Source of the DNA: Sphingobacteriales bacterium JAD_PAG50586_3
Lineage (GTDB): Bacteria > Bacteroidota > Bacteroidia > CAMBQF01
Direction: 5' to 3'
DNA: 64,000 nucleotides
Assembly (NCBI GenBank): GCA_023213195.1
Contig: CP096135.1
Location: forward strand, 1,816,616 to 1,880,615
Shown: in pieces, positions 53,022 to 62,684 of the stretch
Position numbering within the stretch: position 1 is the first letter of the stretch
Layout: each line of letters begins with the position of its first letter
Notes under the pieces: model-generated
Seen by the model: the letters and a program-made list of their open reading frames with translations, nothing else
What the model was told of the DNA's origin: nothing
The model's database searches: none
Program-made: the position numbers and the translations under genes

Positions 53022-54227
53022 ATGGCAAGTGTAAAAATAATACTAAAGACTGAAAAACAAAATAAAGCTGGCGAAGCCCCATTATATCTTCGTATAATAA
53101 ATGGCCGCAAAGCCCAGTATATCTCTTTAGGATTTGCTATTAAGCCCGAACACTGGGATGATACAAAGCAAATAGCGAAAAAATCACATCCAAATTCAAC
53201 ACGATTTAATAATTTTCTGGCTAATAAGGTTGCTGAAGCCCAAGGTGTGATTTTGGATATTAGTACTTCCAAAGAGATAATATCCGCAAAGAAGATAAAA
53301 CAGAACATTTTAGGTCGTGTGGACGAGTCTTTCATTATGTATGCTGAAAACTACAAGGCACAATTGGAAAGTACCGGAACATACCTCAGCTATAAAAGGG
53401 TAAAGGCAATTTTAGGCAAACTAAAAAAGTATTTAGATGGCAAGGATTTACACTTTAGCGATATTACACAAACATGGCTAAAAGGGTATGAAGCTTATTT
53501 AAAAGGTACACTAAAAAATGCAGTTAATACCATATACACTGACTTTAAGACCATACGTAGAATATACAATGAAGCAATAAAGGATGATATTATCCCCTTT
53601 GAGAAAAGTCCTTTTTTGCGGTTTAAGCCCAAAGCAGAAGCCACTAAACGCGAGTTCCTTACTGAAGATGAACTAATAGCTTTTGAAAAGCTTGACTTAC
53701 CCCCTACCTCAGTGTTATCATTACATAGGAATATGTATGTTTTTGCAGCTTATGCCGGGGGGATAAGAATATCAGACCTTCTACAACTACGTATCAAAGA
53801 CTTTGATGGTGAAAAACTGTACTTAAAAACACAAAAGACTGGAACCATTATATCAATAAAGCTACCTAAAAAGGCAATTGAGATAATCTCTTTATATACC
53901 CCAGATAAAACACACAATGACTTTATATTTCCTTGTTTAAAATTTAGTGGGGCTGAAAATATCGGTAATAAGCAACTAACTCAAGCAATCTCATCAAACA
54001 ACGCATACATTAACAAAAACCTCAAGACCATTGGGAAGCTTGCGGAGATAGAAAAAACAATCTATTTTCATAGTTCCAGACATACCTGAGCGACAAGAGC
54101 ATTGAAAAAAGGTATGCGTATAGAGTATGTTTCAAAGCTTATGGGGCACTCAAACATTAAAATCACCCAGATATATGCCAAAATAGTAAACGAAGAGCTG
54201 GACAAGGCTATGGAATTATTTGATTAG
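53022..54227 (+). CDS. Tyrosine recombinase/integrase of mobile element type (in-frame stop)
   Basis: About 401 codons when the TGA at 54087-54089 is read through. Arm-binding domain at the N-terminus (SVKIILKTEKQNKAGEAPLYLRIINGRKAQYISLGFAIKPEHWD), SAM-like core-binding domain, and catalytic residues: Arg in YAGGIRISD, HxxR in YFHSSRHT, His in LMGHSN, and the nucleophile Tyr in QIYAKI. The stop sits between RHT and ATRALKKG, where W or F is usual (HTWAT/HTFAT); CCTGG gives Trp. Beside a tRNA fragment, so probably the integrase of the island that carries the R-M system. A hairpin AGGTCTTAA / TTAAGACCT (54226-54255) overlaps its end. Confidence 0.85.
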
Positions 54228-54381: not shown

Positions 54382-57236
54382 CTAACCAGTTATTCCATTT
54401 ATAAAAGTATCAATAAAGTTAGTTATCTTTTTCAAAATGCGGTCTCCAATCTTTTTACGTTCTAATACTGATGGCCTAGGGCCATTTATTAGGTCAAGCA
54501 CTTCATCTCTAAGAGGTTCTTTTTCTGCATACAAGTATTCCTCTATTAACTTTTGGGTTTTATCAGCAAAGAGATCTTCCTCATTAACAATGTTTTCAAA
54601 AGCTTTTTGTTGCTCTATATTCCAGAATTTCTCAAACTCTTCGGGTATATCATCTATATCTTCAATATGTGGAATATTTTCGGCAATAAAGCGTTCTATC
54701 AACTCACGTTTGCTTCGCAGTTCAACATTAGTGTTAAGCAGATTAAATATTTCCTTCTCGGTTTGTTGCACATCTGCATTAACCTTTGATTTAAGCTTAA
54801 TTAGTAGTTGAAGTATATACTTAACATTTATCTCATCGCGATGTATTAGCTCTAATTCAAAATCAACATCATCTAAAATTGAAACCTTTTCTTTTTGTGT
54901 ATCGGTTTTAACCTTATCGTATAAATCAAGGTATTTACTTTTATAATCTTCAAAAAGCTGTTCTGTCATAGCTAAGTCTTCCCACTTAAAGTCGGAAAAA
55001 GCAGCCATAATATTTTTTATTCTGATCAAATCTCTAAAAGCCCTTATAAAATCTAATTCAGCATCTTCATCGGGTAAACTATCTACACTTTTTACTGTAG
55101 GTGTTATTTTTAATAATTCAATATAAGCATCATTAAATTTATTTACGTACTCTTCATAAGGTTTCATTACTACTACCTCTATAGCCTCTTTGTTACTAAA
55201 AAGTGTAATAGCATCATCAGTAGCATTTTTAAGATTACGGAAAGCAACAATATTACCTTGTGACTTCAACTCATTCAAAATACGATTTGTACGGGAATAA
55301 GCTTGCACTAGCCCATGGAATTTAAGGTTTTTATCTACATATAGTGTGTTAAGTGTTTTGCTGTCGAAACCAGTTAAAAACATATTTACTACCAGTAAGA
55401 TATCAACTTTACGTTCTTTTACCTTTTTTGAAATGTCTTTATAATAGTTGTAAAAAGATTCGCTATCCGTAGTAGAAAACTTAGTGTCAAACATGGCATT
55501 GTAATGCCCTATAAATTCATCCAAGCGTTCGCGCTTATCTTTAGAAAGCGCATATAACACTTTGGGTTCTTCAGCTATTGGCAACTCCTCAGGTAAAAAA
55601 CCATTAGCTTCCGGGTCTTCTTCATTTGCAGCGTAGCTAAATATAGTTGCTGTTTTTAGGGTATGTTGTCCGTCCTCTTTCTTTTTTTGCAATATGTCGT
55701 AATACTTTATAAGCGTTTCAACACTACTTACGCAAAACATAGCAGTAAATTGGCGACTGTGGGTTTTACGGTCGTGGTTGTCTATAATATAGTCAGCAAT
55801 TTTCTCTAACCTTAAGGGCGATTCCATCAATTCTTCGCGGTCTATATCTTGAACCTCTATATCAATATTGGTAGGACTGCCTTCTTTCTGTTTGTACCGC
55901 CCTATATACTCAACCGAGAATTTAAGCACGTTCTCATCCTTTATGGCATCTGTAATAACATACCTATGTAAACGTTCACCAAAAAGGTCTTTAGTAGTAC
56001 GCTTACCGGCCTCATTTTTTACTGAATTATCAGCAAAAATAGGAGTACCAGTAAAGCCAAACATTTGCATATTGTTAAAGAACGATACAATATTTTTATG
56101 GGTATCGCCAAACTGTGAACGATGGCATTCATCAAAAATAAACACAATCCGCTCATTTTGCAGCCTTTCCATTTTGCCTACATATTGCCTTTTGCTTATA
56201 GCCGTATTTAATTTTTGAATGGTAGTAACTATAAGTTTAGTATCGTCGCTCATTTGCTGCACAAAAGCGCGTGTATTGCTAGTGCCGTCTATACTGCCCT
56301 TGCTAAAACTATTAAACTCTTTGGTAGTTTGGTAATCAAGGTCGCGCCGGTCTACTACAAACACTACTTTTTTACTTCGGCTAAGTGCGTTAACACCTGG
56401 CTGGCCTTAAATGATGTTAGCGTTTTGCCCGAACCTGTTGTATGCCATATATAACCGTTCTTATCGGTATTTTTCACCCTGTCTATAATAGCCTCAACAG
56501 CATAGTACTGGTATGGGCGCAACACCATTAAAATCTTCTCAGTCTCATTAAGTACTATGTATTTACATATCATTTTAGATATGTGGCAAGGCTCTAAAAA
56601 TTCTTTGGTAAAATCATTAAGGATATTAGTATATCTATTGTTTTCCTTGTCTGTCCAATAAAAGGTTTGCTTAAACGATTGTAACCTGTTATTGGCATAG
56701 TATTTAGTATTTACACCATTACTAATTACAAAAATTTGCACATATTGGTATAGCGCCGAATTTGATCCAAACGAGTGGCGCTGGTATCTGTTTACTTGGT
56801 TAAACGCCTCTTTAAGCTCAAGTCCTCGGCGTTTAAGCTCTATGTGAACTAAGGGCAGCCCGTTAATAAGCAAAGTAACATCATACCTGTTTTTATATTT
56901 GCCATCAACCGCAACTTGATTGGTTACCTGAAACTGGTTTTGGCACCAAAACTCAGTATTAATAAACTCAAAGTAAAGATTGTCTCCATTATCGCGAATA
57001 ATATGTTGCTTTTGACGAAGAGTGCGGGCTTTTTCAAATACCGAACCCTTGCTGAGTATATTTAATACTTTTTCAAACTCAGTGGTCGAGAAGGAGATGT
57101 TATTGTGCTTTTCTAATTGTATTTTGAGGTTGTTAACCAGCGCATTTTCGTTTGAAATAGTAACATAGTTATACCCTTGCTTCTGCAAAAGCTCAATCAA
57201 TTGCTCTTCTAATATTTGTTCGGATTGTTTGCTCAA
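54382..57236 (-). CDS. hsdR: Type I restriction enzyme subunit R (frameshift)
   Basis: About 951 aa; ATP-dependent DNA translocation and cleavage. PD-(D/E)xK nuclease: RYD119 and E133-L-K135 (HIELKRRG). Motor: Walker A TGSGKT 267-272 and DECHRSQFG in the second part, then TGTPI, VNMFLTGFDSKTLNTLYVDKNL and QAYSRTNR helicase motifs. The frame breaks at a T6 run (56368-56373); one more base gives AEVKKVVFVVDRRDLDY. Transcribed apart from the recombinase gene upstream, from which a perfect 16-bp hairpin separates it. Works with HsdM and HsdS encoded at 59616-62391. Confidence 0.92.
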
Positions 57237-57345
57237 AATAAAATGACTGTAGGTGTTTAATAACTATTATTTTAGTTTAAACCTCAAAATTAGCAAATAA
57301 TCCACAAACTTATATTGTGGATTATTTGCTGGTTAATTAGTTCCA
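57237..57345. other. Intergenic region hsdR-recombinase
   Basis: Contains only the hairpin at 57292-57330 and presumably the hsdR promoter; AT-rich. Confidence 0.4.
57292..57330 (-). terminator. Perfect 16-bp hairpin between recombinase and hsdR
   Basis: AGCAAATAATCCACAA (57292-57307), 7-nt loop, TTGTGGATTATTTGCT (57315-57330). Followed on the minus strand by AATTTT. Probable terminator of the recombinase gene; it could also be a protein-binding site. Confidence 0.65.
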
Positions 57346-58305
57346 CTACTTTAATCCATTAAACATCAAATCTATCACCTTTTTCTTTTGCTCTAAATTG
57401 GGATGTACATATAGGTTTAACGTAGTACTGATATTAGAGTGGCCCAGTAGAACGCTTACTGTTTTATAGTCGCATTTGCTTTCAATGCACCTTGTTGCAA
57501 AACTGTGACGTAACCCATGGAATTTAAGCTCAGGTAGCCCAATTGTCTTAATCAGTTCTTTATAATAATTTCTGTACGTTCGTGGTTCAGTTGGTTTAGC
57601 ATCATTAGTTAAAACAAAAAACGAAGGGTTTACTATCTTTTTCATAGGTTTAAGCATCCTTAAAAGTTCTTTATTTATAGGTATTTCTCTTATAGAGTTT
57701 TTTGTTTTTGGGGTATCAAGTACAACTTCAGTTTTCCGGCTGTCGTCTTCAATATTATAAATGCGCTGTATGGTACGTCTTACGTTTATTACTCCATTTT
57801 CAGTGTCAATATCTTCCCATGTTAAGGCACAAATTTCGCCAATCCTAATACCCGAGCAAAGGCAAATATATACGCCTAGGTTGCGAAACGTAAAATGTTG
57901 TTGAATGTATTGCATTAATACTTTTTGGTGAGACCGGGTAAGAACATCAACAGTGTGCTTTACCCTCTCTGTTGGAAACCGTATCTCAAATGGAATGTAT
58001 TCAATCCATTTGTGCTTAGCTCCATATTTTAGTACCATTTTAAGTACAATTAAGATATCTTTTACTGTTTTGTGGCTTAACCCCAGTGTTAGTTTGGCGA
58101 GCACAAATTTCTGAACTTCTGCTTCTGTAATAACATGTTTATCACCAAATACAGGCGATAAATGATTTTCAATTAATAGTACATAGGCCGAAAAGGTTGA
58201 CTTTTTAACAAACTGCTTCTTTTCTTTTTTCCAAAGGGTAACAATTGACGATAGATTTTTTTGATTGTGCATAAAGGTTTTTTTGAGATTAGTAATTAAT
58301 CCCAA
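57346..58305 (-). CDS. Tyrosine recombinase, probable hsdS invertase
   Basis: 319 aa from 58305, or 308 aa from the ATG at 58272 (MHNQKNLSSIVTLWKKEKKQF), which I slightly favour. Catalytic residues: Arg in CSGIRIGEIC, Lys region TPKTKNSIREIP, HxxR in FHGLRHSFAT, His in LLGHSNISTT, Tyr in NLYVHP. Sequence is unlike the integrase at 53022. Set between hsdR and the silent hsdS cassette, with its start about 40 bp from the left inverted repeat, it is well placed to invert hsdS DNA. Phase-variable type I loci in other bacteria carry a recombinase in this position. Activity is inferred. Confidence 0.85.
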   Translation of the reverse strand: MGLITNLKKTFMHNQKNLSSIVTLWKKEKKQFVKKSTFSAYVLLIENHLSPVFGDKHVITEAEVQKFVLAKLTLGLSHKTVKDILIVLKMVLKYGAKHKWIEYIPFEIRFPTERVKHTVDVLTRSHQKVLMQYIQQHFTFRNLGVYICLCSGIRIGEICALTWEDIDTENGVINVRRTIQRIYNIEDDSRKTEVVLDTPKTKNSIREIPINKELLRMLKPMKKIVNPSFFVLTNDAKPTEPRTYRNYYKELIKTIGLPELKFHGLRHSFATRCIESKCDYKTVSVLLGHSNISTTLNLYVHPNLEQKKKVIDLMFNGLK

Positions 58306-58344
58306 AGGAAAAGAATTTAATATTAGAGATTCACAAGCACTATT

Positions 58345-58362
58345 GTTCCTAATTTGAGATTT
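58345..58362 (+). repeat. Inverted repeat 1, left arm
   Basis: GTTCCTAATTTGAGATTT, exactly complementary to 60693-60710. Marks the 5' end of the silent hsdS cassette, at the codons for VPNLRF. Confidence 0.85.
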
Positions 58363-58898
58363 TCCGGCTTTGAGGGAGATTGGGGGCTTATGTCATTAAG
58401 AGAGATGGTTGAGTTTAAAACTGGATATGCATTTAAAAGCGAGAAAATGTTATCGGAAAGAAGCACATACCAGCTAATAAAAATGTCAAACGTTTATCAA
58501 AATGAATTGCGATTAGACAGAAATCCTTCTTTTGGCAAACCATCGAAGATAACCAACAAGATTACATACTAAAAAAGGTGACACTATATTAACTTTAACA
58601 GGAACTGTTGGAAAAAAGACTTTGGTTACTCTGTGCAAATAAAAGAAGACAACAAGTATTTATTAAATCAAAGAGTTGCATTACTTCGTGAAAGAAAAAA
58701 CTCAACAGTAAATGAATTTATTGCTCAATTTGTATCAAGTAAGAAATTTCTTGACGCTTTTTTAATGAAGCCAAAGGAGGTACTGGAAACCAAACAAATG
58801 TTGGAATAGAAGGCATCAAATCCATTCAACTTCCTTTTCCTTGTATACTTGAGCAACAAAAAATAGGTACATTTTTATCCCTTATTGATGAGCGGATC

Positions 58899-58922
58899 CA
58901 AACCCAAAGCAAAATAATTGAG
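58899..58922 (+). repeat. Inverted repeat 2, left arm (24 bp)
   Basis: A 24-bp stretch in the central conserved region of the silent cassette (codons for QTQSKIIE), exactly complementary to 60210-60233 in active hsdS. Confidence 0.88.
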
Positions 58923-59615
58923 AGATTAGAATCCTTAATGGAAGGATTGAAAAATCAGATTTTTACACAAAAAATGAGATTTAAAAATAGGGATACGAGT
59001 GAATTTGGGGATTGGAAAGTAAAAAAATGGGACAAGTATTTTCGTTTAAAACTACCAATTCTTATTCCAGAGAAAAATTAAATTATGAAGTGGGTGATGT
59101 TAAGAATATTCATTATGGTGATATCCATACCCAATATAGAACACTCTTTGATGCCAAGAAAGAAAGTACTCCATTTATAAACTTAGATACTAATATTCAA
59201 AAAATATCGCAAGATAATTATTGTATGGTTGGGGATGTCATACTTGCTGATGCTTCTGAAGATTTGCAAGATGTTGGAAAGAGCATTGAAGTTATAAATA
59301 TTGATTCGCAAAGAATATTGGCTGGTCTACATACAATACACGCACGCCCCTTTAGCAACATTTTTTATATTGGTTTTTGTGGACATCTTTTTACCTCGAA
59401 AAGAGTTAAGTTACAAATTCAAAAAGAGGCACAAGGTACTAAAGTGCTAAGTATCTCTACTGGTAGACTATCCAATATTGATTTGCCTATTCCATCTTTA
59501 GAAGAGCAGAGTTCTATTGCAAAATTTTTCTCACACATTAATGATAAGGTAGAAACAGAAAAGCAAATACTATTACAATATAAAAATCAAAAAACGCACC
59601 TATTACAAAACCTCT

Positions 59616-60743
59616 TTATATAAATAAATTTTGCAATAGATATTTCTTCTGTCTTTCGTATTGTTCCAATACATTATTTTCTATTTCAATTTTTTTATCG
59701 ATTGCGGAAAGACAGTCGGCTATTTTTATTTGTTCTTTCAAAGAAGGAATTAAACAAGAGTATTTTGAAATCTGCGGAACTGTTAATTGAGGCACCCCTG
59801 TACTCTCAATGGAAAATTTCATATTATTTATTGCCTCTTCTAAGTATTTCGGATTAATATCTGTATTCGGAATAATGACAATGAGACGAACAATCGCGTT
59901 AAACTTTTCAAATCGAGCATTAGCAAATCCTAAATTGCCCCTCCCACTGACAGTAACACAATTTTCTGGATATTGAAAACTTGTTGCATATCCATAAAGC
60001 CCAGAGCCAGATCCATTTGCGTAAACAGGGTAAATATATTTTTCAGACTTTTCCTTTTTGTACTCCAACTTAGTCAAGTCCCCACCTGCATAAAATTTTC
60101 CAATATTGCTTAGCTGCATGTTTTTCCATTCAGAAAACTCATCATCTTGAAATCTTAATCTTCTAGAAAATATTTTTTCTTTAACAGTACGTTTTAATAA
60201 CTTCAATTCCTCAATTATTTTGCTTTGGGTTTGAATACGCTCGTCTAAAAGGGATAGAAAAGAAGAGATTTTGTTTTGTTCTAGCTTTGATGTGGGGATT
60301 GTCGTTTTTACCTTTTCTATATTTTGTACAGATAATCCTGGCTGTGCCGCTCCTGTTGCATATTGGTTCAAATTTAAATATGAAAGTAGGTAATACATCA
60401 TATCTACATCAACATCGTTGCTTGATGTAACAACTACGGCGTGTTCGGTTGCATAAAACTTCCCATTTGCAAGATTAATATTTCCACAAAGCGCACCTTG
60501 GCGACCAATTAAAGAATATTTTCCATCGTAATTGTATGTTTTTGTATAACCCCTTAATCCATTTCCGCCATAGCAAGGTAACAAATAATCATTAAATTTT
60601 TCATCTATTTCAGAGGCACTAATAAATTTGCCCGCTTGCATTTTACATATTTCCCCCAACTTTTTTTCCTCCCATTCCCCTTCAAAGCTAGGAAATCTCA
60701 AATTAGGAACCTTTGCTATAATTTTGCTGTTATTTTTTGCCAT
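59616..60743 (-). CDS. hsdS: Type I restriction enzyme specificity subunit S (active copy)
   Basis: 375 aa, intact. Gives DNA-target specificity to the HsdM2S methylase and the R2M2S nuclease. Two target recognition domains (about residues 15-170 and 200-350) separated by the conserved helix SLLDERIQTQSKIIEELKLLKRTV (about 165-190), and a C-terminal helix IDKKIEIENNVLEQYERQKKYLLQNLFI. Lies 44 bp after hsdM on the same strand, so it is expressed with it. Its N-terminal codons and central helix carry the inverted repeats matched in the silent cassette. Confidence 0.93.
   Translation of the reverse strand: MAKNNSKIIAKVPNLRFPSFEGEWEEKKLGEICKMQAGKFISASEIDEKFNDYLLPCYGGNGLRGYTKTYNYDGKYSLIGRQGALCGNINLANGKFYATEHAVVVTSSNDVDVDMMYYLLSYLNLNQYATGAAQPGLSVQNIEKVKTTIPTSKLEQNKISSFLSLLDERIQTQSKIIEELKLLKRTVKEKIFSRRLRFQDDEFSEWKNMQLSNIGKFYAGGDLTKLEYKKEKSEKYIYPVYANGSGSGLYGYATSFQYPENCVTVSGRGNLGFANARFEKFNAIVRLIVIIPNTDINPKYLEEAINNMKFSIESTGVPQLTVPQISKYSCLIPSLKEQIKIADCLSAIDKKIEIENNVLEQYERQKKYLLQNLFI
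60210..60233 (+). repeat. Inverted repeat 2, right arm (24 bp)
   Basis: Exact reverse complement of 58899-58922, within the central conserved region of active hsdS. Inversion between these arms would exchange only the second TRD. Confidence 0.88.
60693..60710 (+). repeat. Inverted repeat 1, right arm
   Basis: AAATCTCAAATTAGGAAC, reverse complement of 58345-58362, at codons for VPNLRF near the start of active hsdS. Inversion here would exchange both TRDs. Confidence 0.85.
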
Positions 60744-60787
60744 TGCTGATTTGTTGTATTATGTGCGTTCACTAGAGGATTTTAGAG

Positions 60788-62391
60788 TTAAAAAACTAAA
60801 CCCAATTCTTTAAAAAACACATCAATCTCTTTATCCAGTTCAGCGCGTTTGGCCTCAAGTTGTTTTATTTCGCCCATTACTGCTTTAATATCTATATCCT
60901 CTTGTTCTTCAAAGGTGTCTACATACCTCGGAATGTTAAGATTGTAATCATTATCGGCAATTTCTTTTAATGAGGCTCTATAACTGTACTTTTCTATTTG
61001 CTTCCTATTCCTATAAGTATCTATTATTTTATCTACATCTTCATCTCGCAGGTAGTTTTGTGTCTTTACCTTTTCAAAATCGCGGCTGGCATCAATAAAC
61101 AGTACATCGTCCGGGTGTTCTTTACACTGCTTAAATACCAGTATACAAGTAGGTATGCTAGTGCCATAAAATATATTGGCAGGCAGGCCAATTACAGCAT
61201 CTAAATAGTTCTTATTTTCTATCAAATAGCGGCGTATGTGCAGTTCTGCTCCGCCCCTGAACAATGCGCCGTGGGGCAATACAACAGCCATTATTGTATT
61301 ATCCTGCATGTGGTGTACCATGTGTTGCACAAAAGCAAAATCGGCCTTGCTGCCGGGTGCTAACCGCCCATATTGACTAAAGCGATCGTCGCCCGTAAAA
61401 AGTGGGTTAGCGCTCCATTCTGCCGAAAAAGGGGGTTGGCTACAATAGCCTCAAAAGTTTTGTCTATATGTTGGGGATGCTCCAGTGTATCCTCATGCTT
61501 AATATCAAAATTGCGGAAATGTACCCCATGCATAATCATATTCATGCGGGCGAGGTTAAAGGTAGTACGACCTAGTTCCTGCCCATAAAAATTAGCAACG
61601 GCAGCTTCTTTATTTACCCGCAACAACAATGAGCCTGATCCACAGGTGGGGTCATAAACACTTTTTATTTTCTTTTTACCCGTAGTAACAATTTTAGCAA
61701 GCACTTTACTTACCTGTTGCGGGGTGTAAAACTCGCCGGCCTTTTTACCTGCTCCGCTGGCAAACTGGCCAATAAGATATTCGTAGGCATCACCCAATAC
61801 ATCCAACTCAGTATCTTTTAACTTAAAATCAATTTTATCAAGATGGCTAAGTACTTTTGCTATAAGAGCATTACGGGCCTCAGGCGTTTTACCTAATTTT
61901 TGGCTATTAAGATCAATATCTTCAAACAGATGGTCAAAATCTTCTTCGCTCTCAGACCCCATGGTACTCAATTGTATATTGTTGAGTATTTTTTGCAAGT
62001 CTTCAAGTATAAAGTTAGCTTTAGTTTCGTCTGCTCCTTCTTTAACTTTACCATCCCCAGTAACATTATCTTCAATGGTGTTGCCGCGTTTAGCCAGTTC
62101 ACTAAACAACTCGGAAGGCAATAAAAAATACCCAAGCTTTGCAATCGCTTCTTCGCGCACCGCTTCAATATATTCTTTGCCTTCGGTAGAGTTTTCATCA
62201 ATATCCCTAAAGCGTATTTTATCAGTCTTTAAAATACTGTCAGCATATATCTCCAACTTCTCAGCTAAATACTTGTAAAATATAAAGCCTAGTATATAGT
62301 CGCGATAGTCATCAGCAGTCATTTTGCCGCGGAGGGTGTTGGCTATGGCCCAAAGTTGGTGCTCTAATATTCGTTTATGGTCTTCAGACAT
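60788..62391 (-). CDS. hsdM: Type I restriction enzyme subunit M (frameshift)
   Basis: About 534 aa; adenine-N6 methyltransferase. N-terminal helical domain (HQLWAIANTLRGKMTADDYRDYILGFIFYKYLAEKLE), GEFYTPQQVSKVLA, SAM-binding DPTCGSGSLL (247-256), catalytic NPPF (319-322), and C-terminal PRYVDTFEEQ. The raw frame breaks inside the NPPF codons: at 61431-61435 a G5 run (C5 on the coding strand) should be C6, giving AIVANPPFSAEWSANP. First gene of the hsdM-hsdS transcript. Confidence 0.92.
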
Positions 62392-62684
62392 ATTACTTTA
62401 ACTGTTTAACCCAAATTTAGAGTTTACTCTTATAATAACAGTAAGGCTTGGCAATAGTTACTCAAACAACCTAGTTAATAACAAAAAGATAATAATATAG
62501 ATAATCAGGTATTAACATCCATTAGTTTCCATTATAGGGTATTAATCTCCATTAGTTTCCATTAACCTCCATCAGAGGGAATTAATCTCCATTAGTCTCC
62601 ATTAACCTCCACGTTGTTTTACAAAGGTTCTAATATTTGCTAGGTTTTTATAAAGTATAAGCAGTATACAGTTAGCTTAAAAAG
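62392..62684. other. Upstream region of hsdM
   Basis: Holds the repeat cluster at 62511-62610 and otherwise AT-rich DNA; the hsdM promoter should be here but no consensus box is obvious. Confidence 0.4.
62511..62610. repeat. ATTAATCTCCATTAG repeat cluster upstream of hsdM
   Basis: Three copies of ATTAA(C/T)(A/C)TCCATTAGT(T/C)TCCATTA at 62511, 62541 and 62581; copies 2 and 3 extend to ACCTCC. Internally each is built of CCATTA units about 10 bp apart, so sites would lie on one face of the helix. Confidence 0.75.

Follow-up and report, generated by a model that had tools for sequence, protein, structure and literature searches.

The systems most similar to the locus considered here are type I restriction-modification (R-M) systems in which specificity genes are rearranged by DNA inversion. 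The closest described case is the hsdS shufflon BB (BF1839-1842) of Bacteroides fragilis NCTC 9343, together with its 638R relative, as presented in the accessible text of that report (PMC3090145). The accessible part of a REBASE survey of inverting type I R-M systems describes the same design as the one proposed below, for example in Streptococcus suis, with four alleles A-D (PMC7394358). For the pneumococcal hsdS genes, the available sections of a further paper report that inversion driven by the recombinase PsrA was shown in vitro and that a 15-bp repeat is the preferred site (PMC7096588), and a genome-wide analysis of sequencing reads, as far as its available text goes, reported that 13 species show signs of inversion in type I R-M systems (PMC5903667). 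In the present work, a stretch of 64,000 nucleotides from Sphingobacteriales bacterium JAD_PAG50586_3 (contig CP096135.1, positions 1,816,616 to 1,880,615; called the window) was analyzed, and at its positions 54382..62391 a type I R-M locus was found that very likely contains an hsdS inversion switch. This reading is based on the gene order, a reversed copy of hsdS, exact repeats that match in reading frame, the complete catalytic set of the adjacent recombinase, the conservation of the repeats among relatives and the agreement between the two copies of each repeat, and the inverting locus is real and probably working.

The window is part of a single contig of 4,155,772 bases (genome G000, 94.49% complete). 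On the minus strand the locus consists of hsdM, hsdS, a tyrosine recombinase gene and hsdR, and a reversed hsdS' cassette lies on the plus strand between hsdS and the recombinase gene. The methyltransferase gene hsdM (60788..62391) displays HsdM_N and N6_Mtase domains, with TIGR00497 extending over both of the open reading frames (ORFs; 61360-62391 and 60788-61330) into which one frame break divides it. At a distance of 44 bp downstream follows the expressed specificity gene hsdS (59616..60743), which is intact, encodes 375 amino acids (aa) and matches Methylase_S in two stretches. The silent cassette hsdS' (plus strand, 58345..59623) lacks a start codon and contains two target recognition domains (TRDs); by homology it is full-length, from VPNLRF... 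through ...LLQNLFI*, and, as assembled, it is interrupted by five frame breaks. Next on the minus strand come the tyrosine recombinase gene (57346..58272; 308 aa from the ATG at 58272; Phage_integrase domain) and hsdR (54382..57236; HSDR_N/EcoR124_C domains), which encodes the restriction/translocase subunit, has one frame break at 56364, lies downstream of the recombinase gene and belongs to the locus. Genes for all three subunits of a type I R-M system, hsdR, hsdM and hsdS, are therefore present together, with hsdM and hsdR each split once as assembled. An earlier note on this DNA had described the hsdM-hsdS pair on the minus strand and the oppositely oriented hsdS cassette, and both are borne out by ORFs and domains, whereas its description of the cassette as lacking a start but otherwise full-length stands at the level of homology and fails at the level of the assembled reading frame. 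The splits of hsdM (61330/61360) and hsdR (56364) were absent from that note.

Two pairs of repeats, each exact and each inverted, connect hsdS with the cassette, and both were found where they had been reported before. The silent copy of repeat 1 (18 bp, 58345..58362, plus strand) reads GTTCCTAATTTGAGATTT, and its expressed copy (18 bp, 60693..60710, minus strand) occupies codons 12-17 of hsdS, behind a leader of 11 codons (MAKNNSKIIAK). The silent copy of repeat 2 (24 bp, 58899..58922, plus strand) reads CAAACCCAAAGCAAAATAATTGAG, and both this copy and the expressed one (24 bp, 60210..60233, minus strand) lie between two TRDs. Both repeats are read in the same frame in hsdS and hsdS', so that the reading frame is preserved across each of them. 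Under the proposed mechanism, the recombinase would flip the segment between the repeats: a flip at repeat 1 (58345/60693) would leave the 11-codon leader in place and exchange both TRDs, a flip at repeat 2 (58899/60210) would exchange the second TRD only, and the two together would give a fourth TRD combination, each HsdS variant directing HsdM and HsdR to a different bipartite motif. The division of labor between the two repeats, as it had been proposed earlier, is supported by the frame being kept across both. Inversion in this organism and the four HsdS variants are predictions from the sequence, and as a prediction the earlier claim of four variants stands; as assembled, the single-inversion products would be truncated, as detailed below.

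The recombinase gene can be read from a TTG at 58305, 39 bp away from the repeat (a distance of about 40 bp had been reported previously), but the homologues are about 308 aa long (nearly all 306-309 aa) and favor the ATG at 58272, which lies 72 bp away. Complete tyrosine recombinases possess the catalytic set R-K-H-R-H-Y. In the product of the window gene this set is complete (R154, K200, H263, R266, H289 and Y299 in 319-aa numbering) and Phage_integrase is matched with E 2.8e-29, so that it can be assigned to the tyrosine recombinases; its relatives of solved structure, as judged by sequence, include the Int protein 6emy (E 1.2e-18), XerA and XerD. The set is also present in all 20 relatives of at least 57% identity, and a partial match, L011, is without the first two catalytic residues. 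Among the matches listed, the best 119 besides the window's own show 73-79% identity, and 7903 of the 8000 candidates scored reached E <= 1e-60. The named records with a close relative of the recombinase belong, by their titles, to Bacteroidota. At E <= 1e-70 such a recombinase was detected in 9 of the 395 genomes sampled from the class and in 11 of the 395 sampled from the phylum (window included; the two samples overlap), and none was found at E <= 1e-60 in two genomes of the same genus, G001 and G002.

The surroundings of the recombinase gene were read in 20 relatives, leaving out the partial L011 and L012 (31% identity); G230 and G185 were equated with the genomes that hold L006 and L007, and each was counted once. 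An hsdM, an hsdS and a reversed hsdS' upstream of the recombinase gene were present in 12 of the 20 (L001, L004-L010, L039, L045-L047), part of hsdS was found at a contig edge in four (L003, L040, L041, L044), the contig ended in repeat 1 in two (L002, L048), hsdS was lacking in one (L042), and the arrangement in L043 was ambiguous. The recombinase gene is followed by hsdR in 15 of the 20, and hsdR is located ahead of hsdM in L006 and L008. The TRDs vary from locus to locus. Residues 6-214 of the expressed HsdS of the window, its first TRD, share 63% identity with the cassette that is silent in L006, so that one TRD is expressed here and silent there. At L007:4269-7940 extra pieces of hsdS were noticed, as if a switch were common to three copies.

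Part of the similarity between repeat copies follows from their encoding the same peptide. Codon and pair-agreement tests show that the repeats are conserved as DNA beyond this shared peptide. Repeat 1 corresponds to GTTCCNAATTTGAGATTY in most loci, with TTA for TTG in L002 and L003, GTC for GTT in L010, and diverged forms in L044 and L047. Within the VPNLRF stretch of repeat 1, the Arg, Leu and Val codons are the same as those of the window in 16, 14 and 15 of 16 relatives, respectively, compared with an agreement of 20, 26 and 26% for codons at identical residues in the recombinase genes of the same loci; the 16 were obtained from the 20 relatives by omitting L042 and L043 (no repeat found) and L044 and L047 (diverged), an omission that favors conservation. 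When 12 loci were modeled with the codon use of each locus and taken as independent, the chance that all share TTG was 2.9e-8 and that all share AGA was 6.0e-9, such all-12 chances being valid only for the codons common to all 12 in repeat 1 (AAT, TTG and AGA) and not for GTT, because L010 has GTC. Base 6 of repeat 1, the N of the pattern, is free between loci (T 15, A 11, G 6 and C 4 over 36 copies) and nevertheless matches within 17 of 17 pairs, with none of 200,000 permutations as good (18 loci tabulated and 17 permuted, the diverged L047 being omitted). Base 18 also matches within 17 of 17 pairs (p about 1e-4), and in repeat 2 positions 8-10 match within 12 of 13 pairs (p 1.5e-5), the exception being L007. 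Wherever a pair was required, L046 and L044, in which one copy was detected, were omitted. Agreement within loci together with freedom between them is explained if the two copies at each locus exchange sequence.

The site also occurs together with the recombinase. In the 395 genomes of the class, GTTCCNAATTTGAGATTY was found 14 times, in eight genomes, and the reversed pattern used as a control was found in none of the 395. Exactly two copies were present in six genomes from four genera, all six among the nine that are recombinase-positive, and two recombinase-negative genomes have one copy each, neither of them in an hsdS frame. With genomes treated as independent, the association of site and recombinase gave a Fisher p of 1.7e-11.

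Indications of both orientations were seen in contig ends of relatives. When both orientations are present in a culture, the graph of a short-read assembly should branch right after the repeat and the flanking contigs should stop at the same base of it, and a repeat of 20-30 bases alone would seldom break an assembly. Seven genomes, selected for a recombinase gene near a contig end and thus not a random sample, were examined. In Emticicia sp. C21 (G730, locus L002), contigs of 29,569 and 25,200 bases end after the same 20 bases counted from the start of repeat 1, in G678 both contigs holding the repeat end after the same 30 bases, and in G731 after the same 123 bases, the pairs in these three genomes being fully identical up to the shared end. 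In G202, both contigs end inside repeat 2. Paired contig ends at one repeat base suggest, indirectly, that both orientations were present in the sample; as the contigs stop there, they do not show whether the two copies differ at the following base.

Several observations weigh against an active switch. In the organism of the window only one orientation was seen. Among relatives, G279 has both copies of repeat 1, yet its contigs do not end at the repeat, repeat 1 of L047 has diverged, and of the nine genomes of the class that carry the recombinase, three (G033, G138 and G380) lack the exact site GTTCCNAATTTGAGATTY. L042 holds a relative of the recombinase without hsdS. At L042:9043-13343 this recombinase, 69% identical, has no hsdS that could be found nearby and adjoins a gene for a TonB-linked outer membrane protein (SusC-like, by eye); in a search for inverted repeats near it only two local palindromes, and no long ones, were found. 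The window as assembled would yield truncated HsdS proteins of 230 aa after inversion at repeat 2 and of 86 aa after inversion at repeat 1, so that neither single-inversion product has an open frame in the assembly as it stands, and the product of a double inversion, starting with the same broken TRD1', would by inference be truncated too. Five frame changes were counted by eye in the three-frame translation of the cassette; hsdM and hsdR have one each, and hsdS and the recombinase gene have none. For the 1.28 kb of the cassette, the sampled rate (10 per 30 kb) predicts about 0.4 breaks against the five present, and proteins of the more distant G561 show no frame changes here (0/5). The cassette holds more than its share of breaks, and real decay is within what these data allow. 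Open cassette frames are needed for four specificities and not for the inversion itself.

With a silent cassette that is genuinely defective, inversion would leave specificity unchanged and would switch the methyltransferase and the nuclease OFF, or shorten HsdS; the locus would then act as an ON/OFF switch or be in decay. The absence of breaks from hsdS and the recombinase gene, together with the excess over the sampled genome rate, speaks for this explanation, but it is considered unlikely, as all five frame changes have the same sense and are located beside A runs (three of them six or seven long; by eye), no in-frame stop occurs within the pieces, and both ends and the repeats are intact. 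Moreover, bases in runs seem to be lost from this assembly generally, as judged from fewer six-base runs and from frame changes in 8 of 30 genes when proteins of the same-genus G002 were compared with 464 kb of G000, versus 0 of 31 in the reverse comparison. Proteins of G561 in G002 and of G002 in G561 gave no frame changes (0/9 and 0/6, respectively). The frequency per 100 kb of runs of six G or C is 1.5 here, 6.7 in G002 and 2.7 in G561, which is richer in A+T, and that of runs of five is 64.5, 53.2 and 10.0, respectively; A/T runs of six or more number 10 in the cassette versus 3 in hsdS. The frame breaks in the cassette, hsdM and hsdR are most likely long-read sequencing errors and not decay. 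As separate observations, the frame changes of G000 and its scarce long runs point to an uncorrected long-read assembly, and four of the ten sampled breaks fall, by eye, on CCWGG-like sites, as might be seen if base calling were disturbed by methylated cytosines. Loss of CCWGG sites through base-calling error was considered as a cause of the frame errors, and CCWGG was observed 394 times for 607 expected here, 720 for 895 in G002 and 501 for 696 in G561. In a PacBio-based genome of Prevotella intermedia, single-base deletions are clustered in an inverted hsdS region, according to the available part of the report (PMC5608340). In inverted hsdS segments of this kind, a mixture of orientations may corrupt the consensus sequence.

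It is less probable still, and in our judgment rather improbable, that slow RecA-dependent recombination or gene conversion takes place between the hsdS copies, with the recombinase a bystander and no fast switch. The agreement within pairs, taken alone, could arise by conversion, and the repeats of some relatives are long (L004, 90 bp; L008, 78 and 60 bp), but repeat 1 measures 18-34 bp in eight of nine loci (60 bp in L008), which is short for RecA, and the identical stretch starts with the first G or no more than five bases ahead of it. Conversion within a locus also leaves unexplained why codons are fixed across loci, and the restriction of the two-copy site to recombinase-bearing genomes, as well as the paired contig ends, which suggest both orientations in one culture, argue against this reading. 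That the arrangement is an artefact, made from a duplicated hsdS in an assembly with many small errors, is hardly conceivable and was rejected, because 12 of the 20 relatives, whose genome records are separate, show the same arrangement with other TRDs.

We consider the chances slightly better than even that one recombinase family and a portable site, GTTCCNAATTTGAGATTY, make up a dedicated specificity-switching module in several Bacteroidota families. The site would be kept letter for letter at the start of hsdS, its N would lie inside the strand-exchange region and so be matched only within a locus, and pairs of TRDs would be exchanged constantly in living populations. If the locus switches as proposed, the pattern of methylation and phage defence of this organism would be mixed within a clonal population, which would matter for its resistance to phages, its uptake of DNA and its gene regulation. 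Of more general use, the 18-base site would offer a handle by which switches of this kind can be recognized in draft genomes, and two contigs ending at one repeat base would be a read-free sign of active inversion.

Some further features were noticed in and around the locus. An inverted repeat of 16 bp with a 7-nt loop (57292..57330, from the inverted-repeat listing) between the recombinase gene and hsdR is possibly a terminator. Adjoining hsdR, at 53022-54089, is a second tyrosine recombinase gene (Arm-DNA-bind_5, Phage_int_SAM_5), broken by an in-frame TGA beyond which the homology continues. Upstream of hsdM, at 62511-62611, there are tandem ATTAATCTCCATTAGTTTCC-like units, and another HsdS is encoded elsewhere in the genome (G000:C1:45860-47092) in an open frame of 565 aa.

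Compared with known systems, the locus resembles shufflon BB, as far as the accessible text of its report describes it, in the shuffling of hsdS TRDs by way of inverted repeats and in a tyrosine integrase beside the last hsdS (PMC3090145). Over repeat 2, the 38-bp repeat printed there agrees with the cassette of the window in 31 of 38 bases and with hsdS in 28 of 38, the former against a best of 22-24 in five shuffled windows, a repeat likeness that is partly due to shared peptide. The same text gives shufflon BB four repeat sets and eight predicted combinations, whereas here a single silent cassette and two pairs of repeats give four predicted combinations. Like the present locus, the cod locus of Streptococcus pneumoniae has a tyrosine recombinase, there PsrA, located beside the hsdS genes, but the available sections on cod describe three hsdS genes as well as three pairs of repeats, of which two measure 298 and 85 bp (PMC7096588). 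A PsrA-like IR1 motif was not found inside repeat 2 (11/20 matches, shuffle p 0.40; 9/20, p 0.83). The REBASE survey, in its accessible part, describes a recombinase at the locus in several systems together with the four alleles A-D; it counted repeats of at least 20 bp, a length below which repeat 1 (18 bp) falls and which repeat 2 (24 bp) exceeds, and a site conserved between species is not mentioned in that part (PMC7394358). In the literature searched, with most subscription papers lying outside it, the text available held no report of a repeat-1 site conserved across Bacteroidota. The earlier suggestion that the combination might be undescribed has to be given up, as it is already known as a kind from the accessible text of two of these reports (PMC7394358, PMC3090145), and what appears to be new is comparative evidence pointing to the repeats as the exchange sites.

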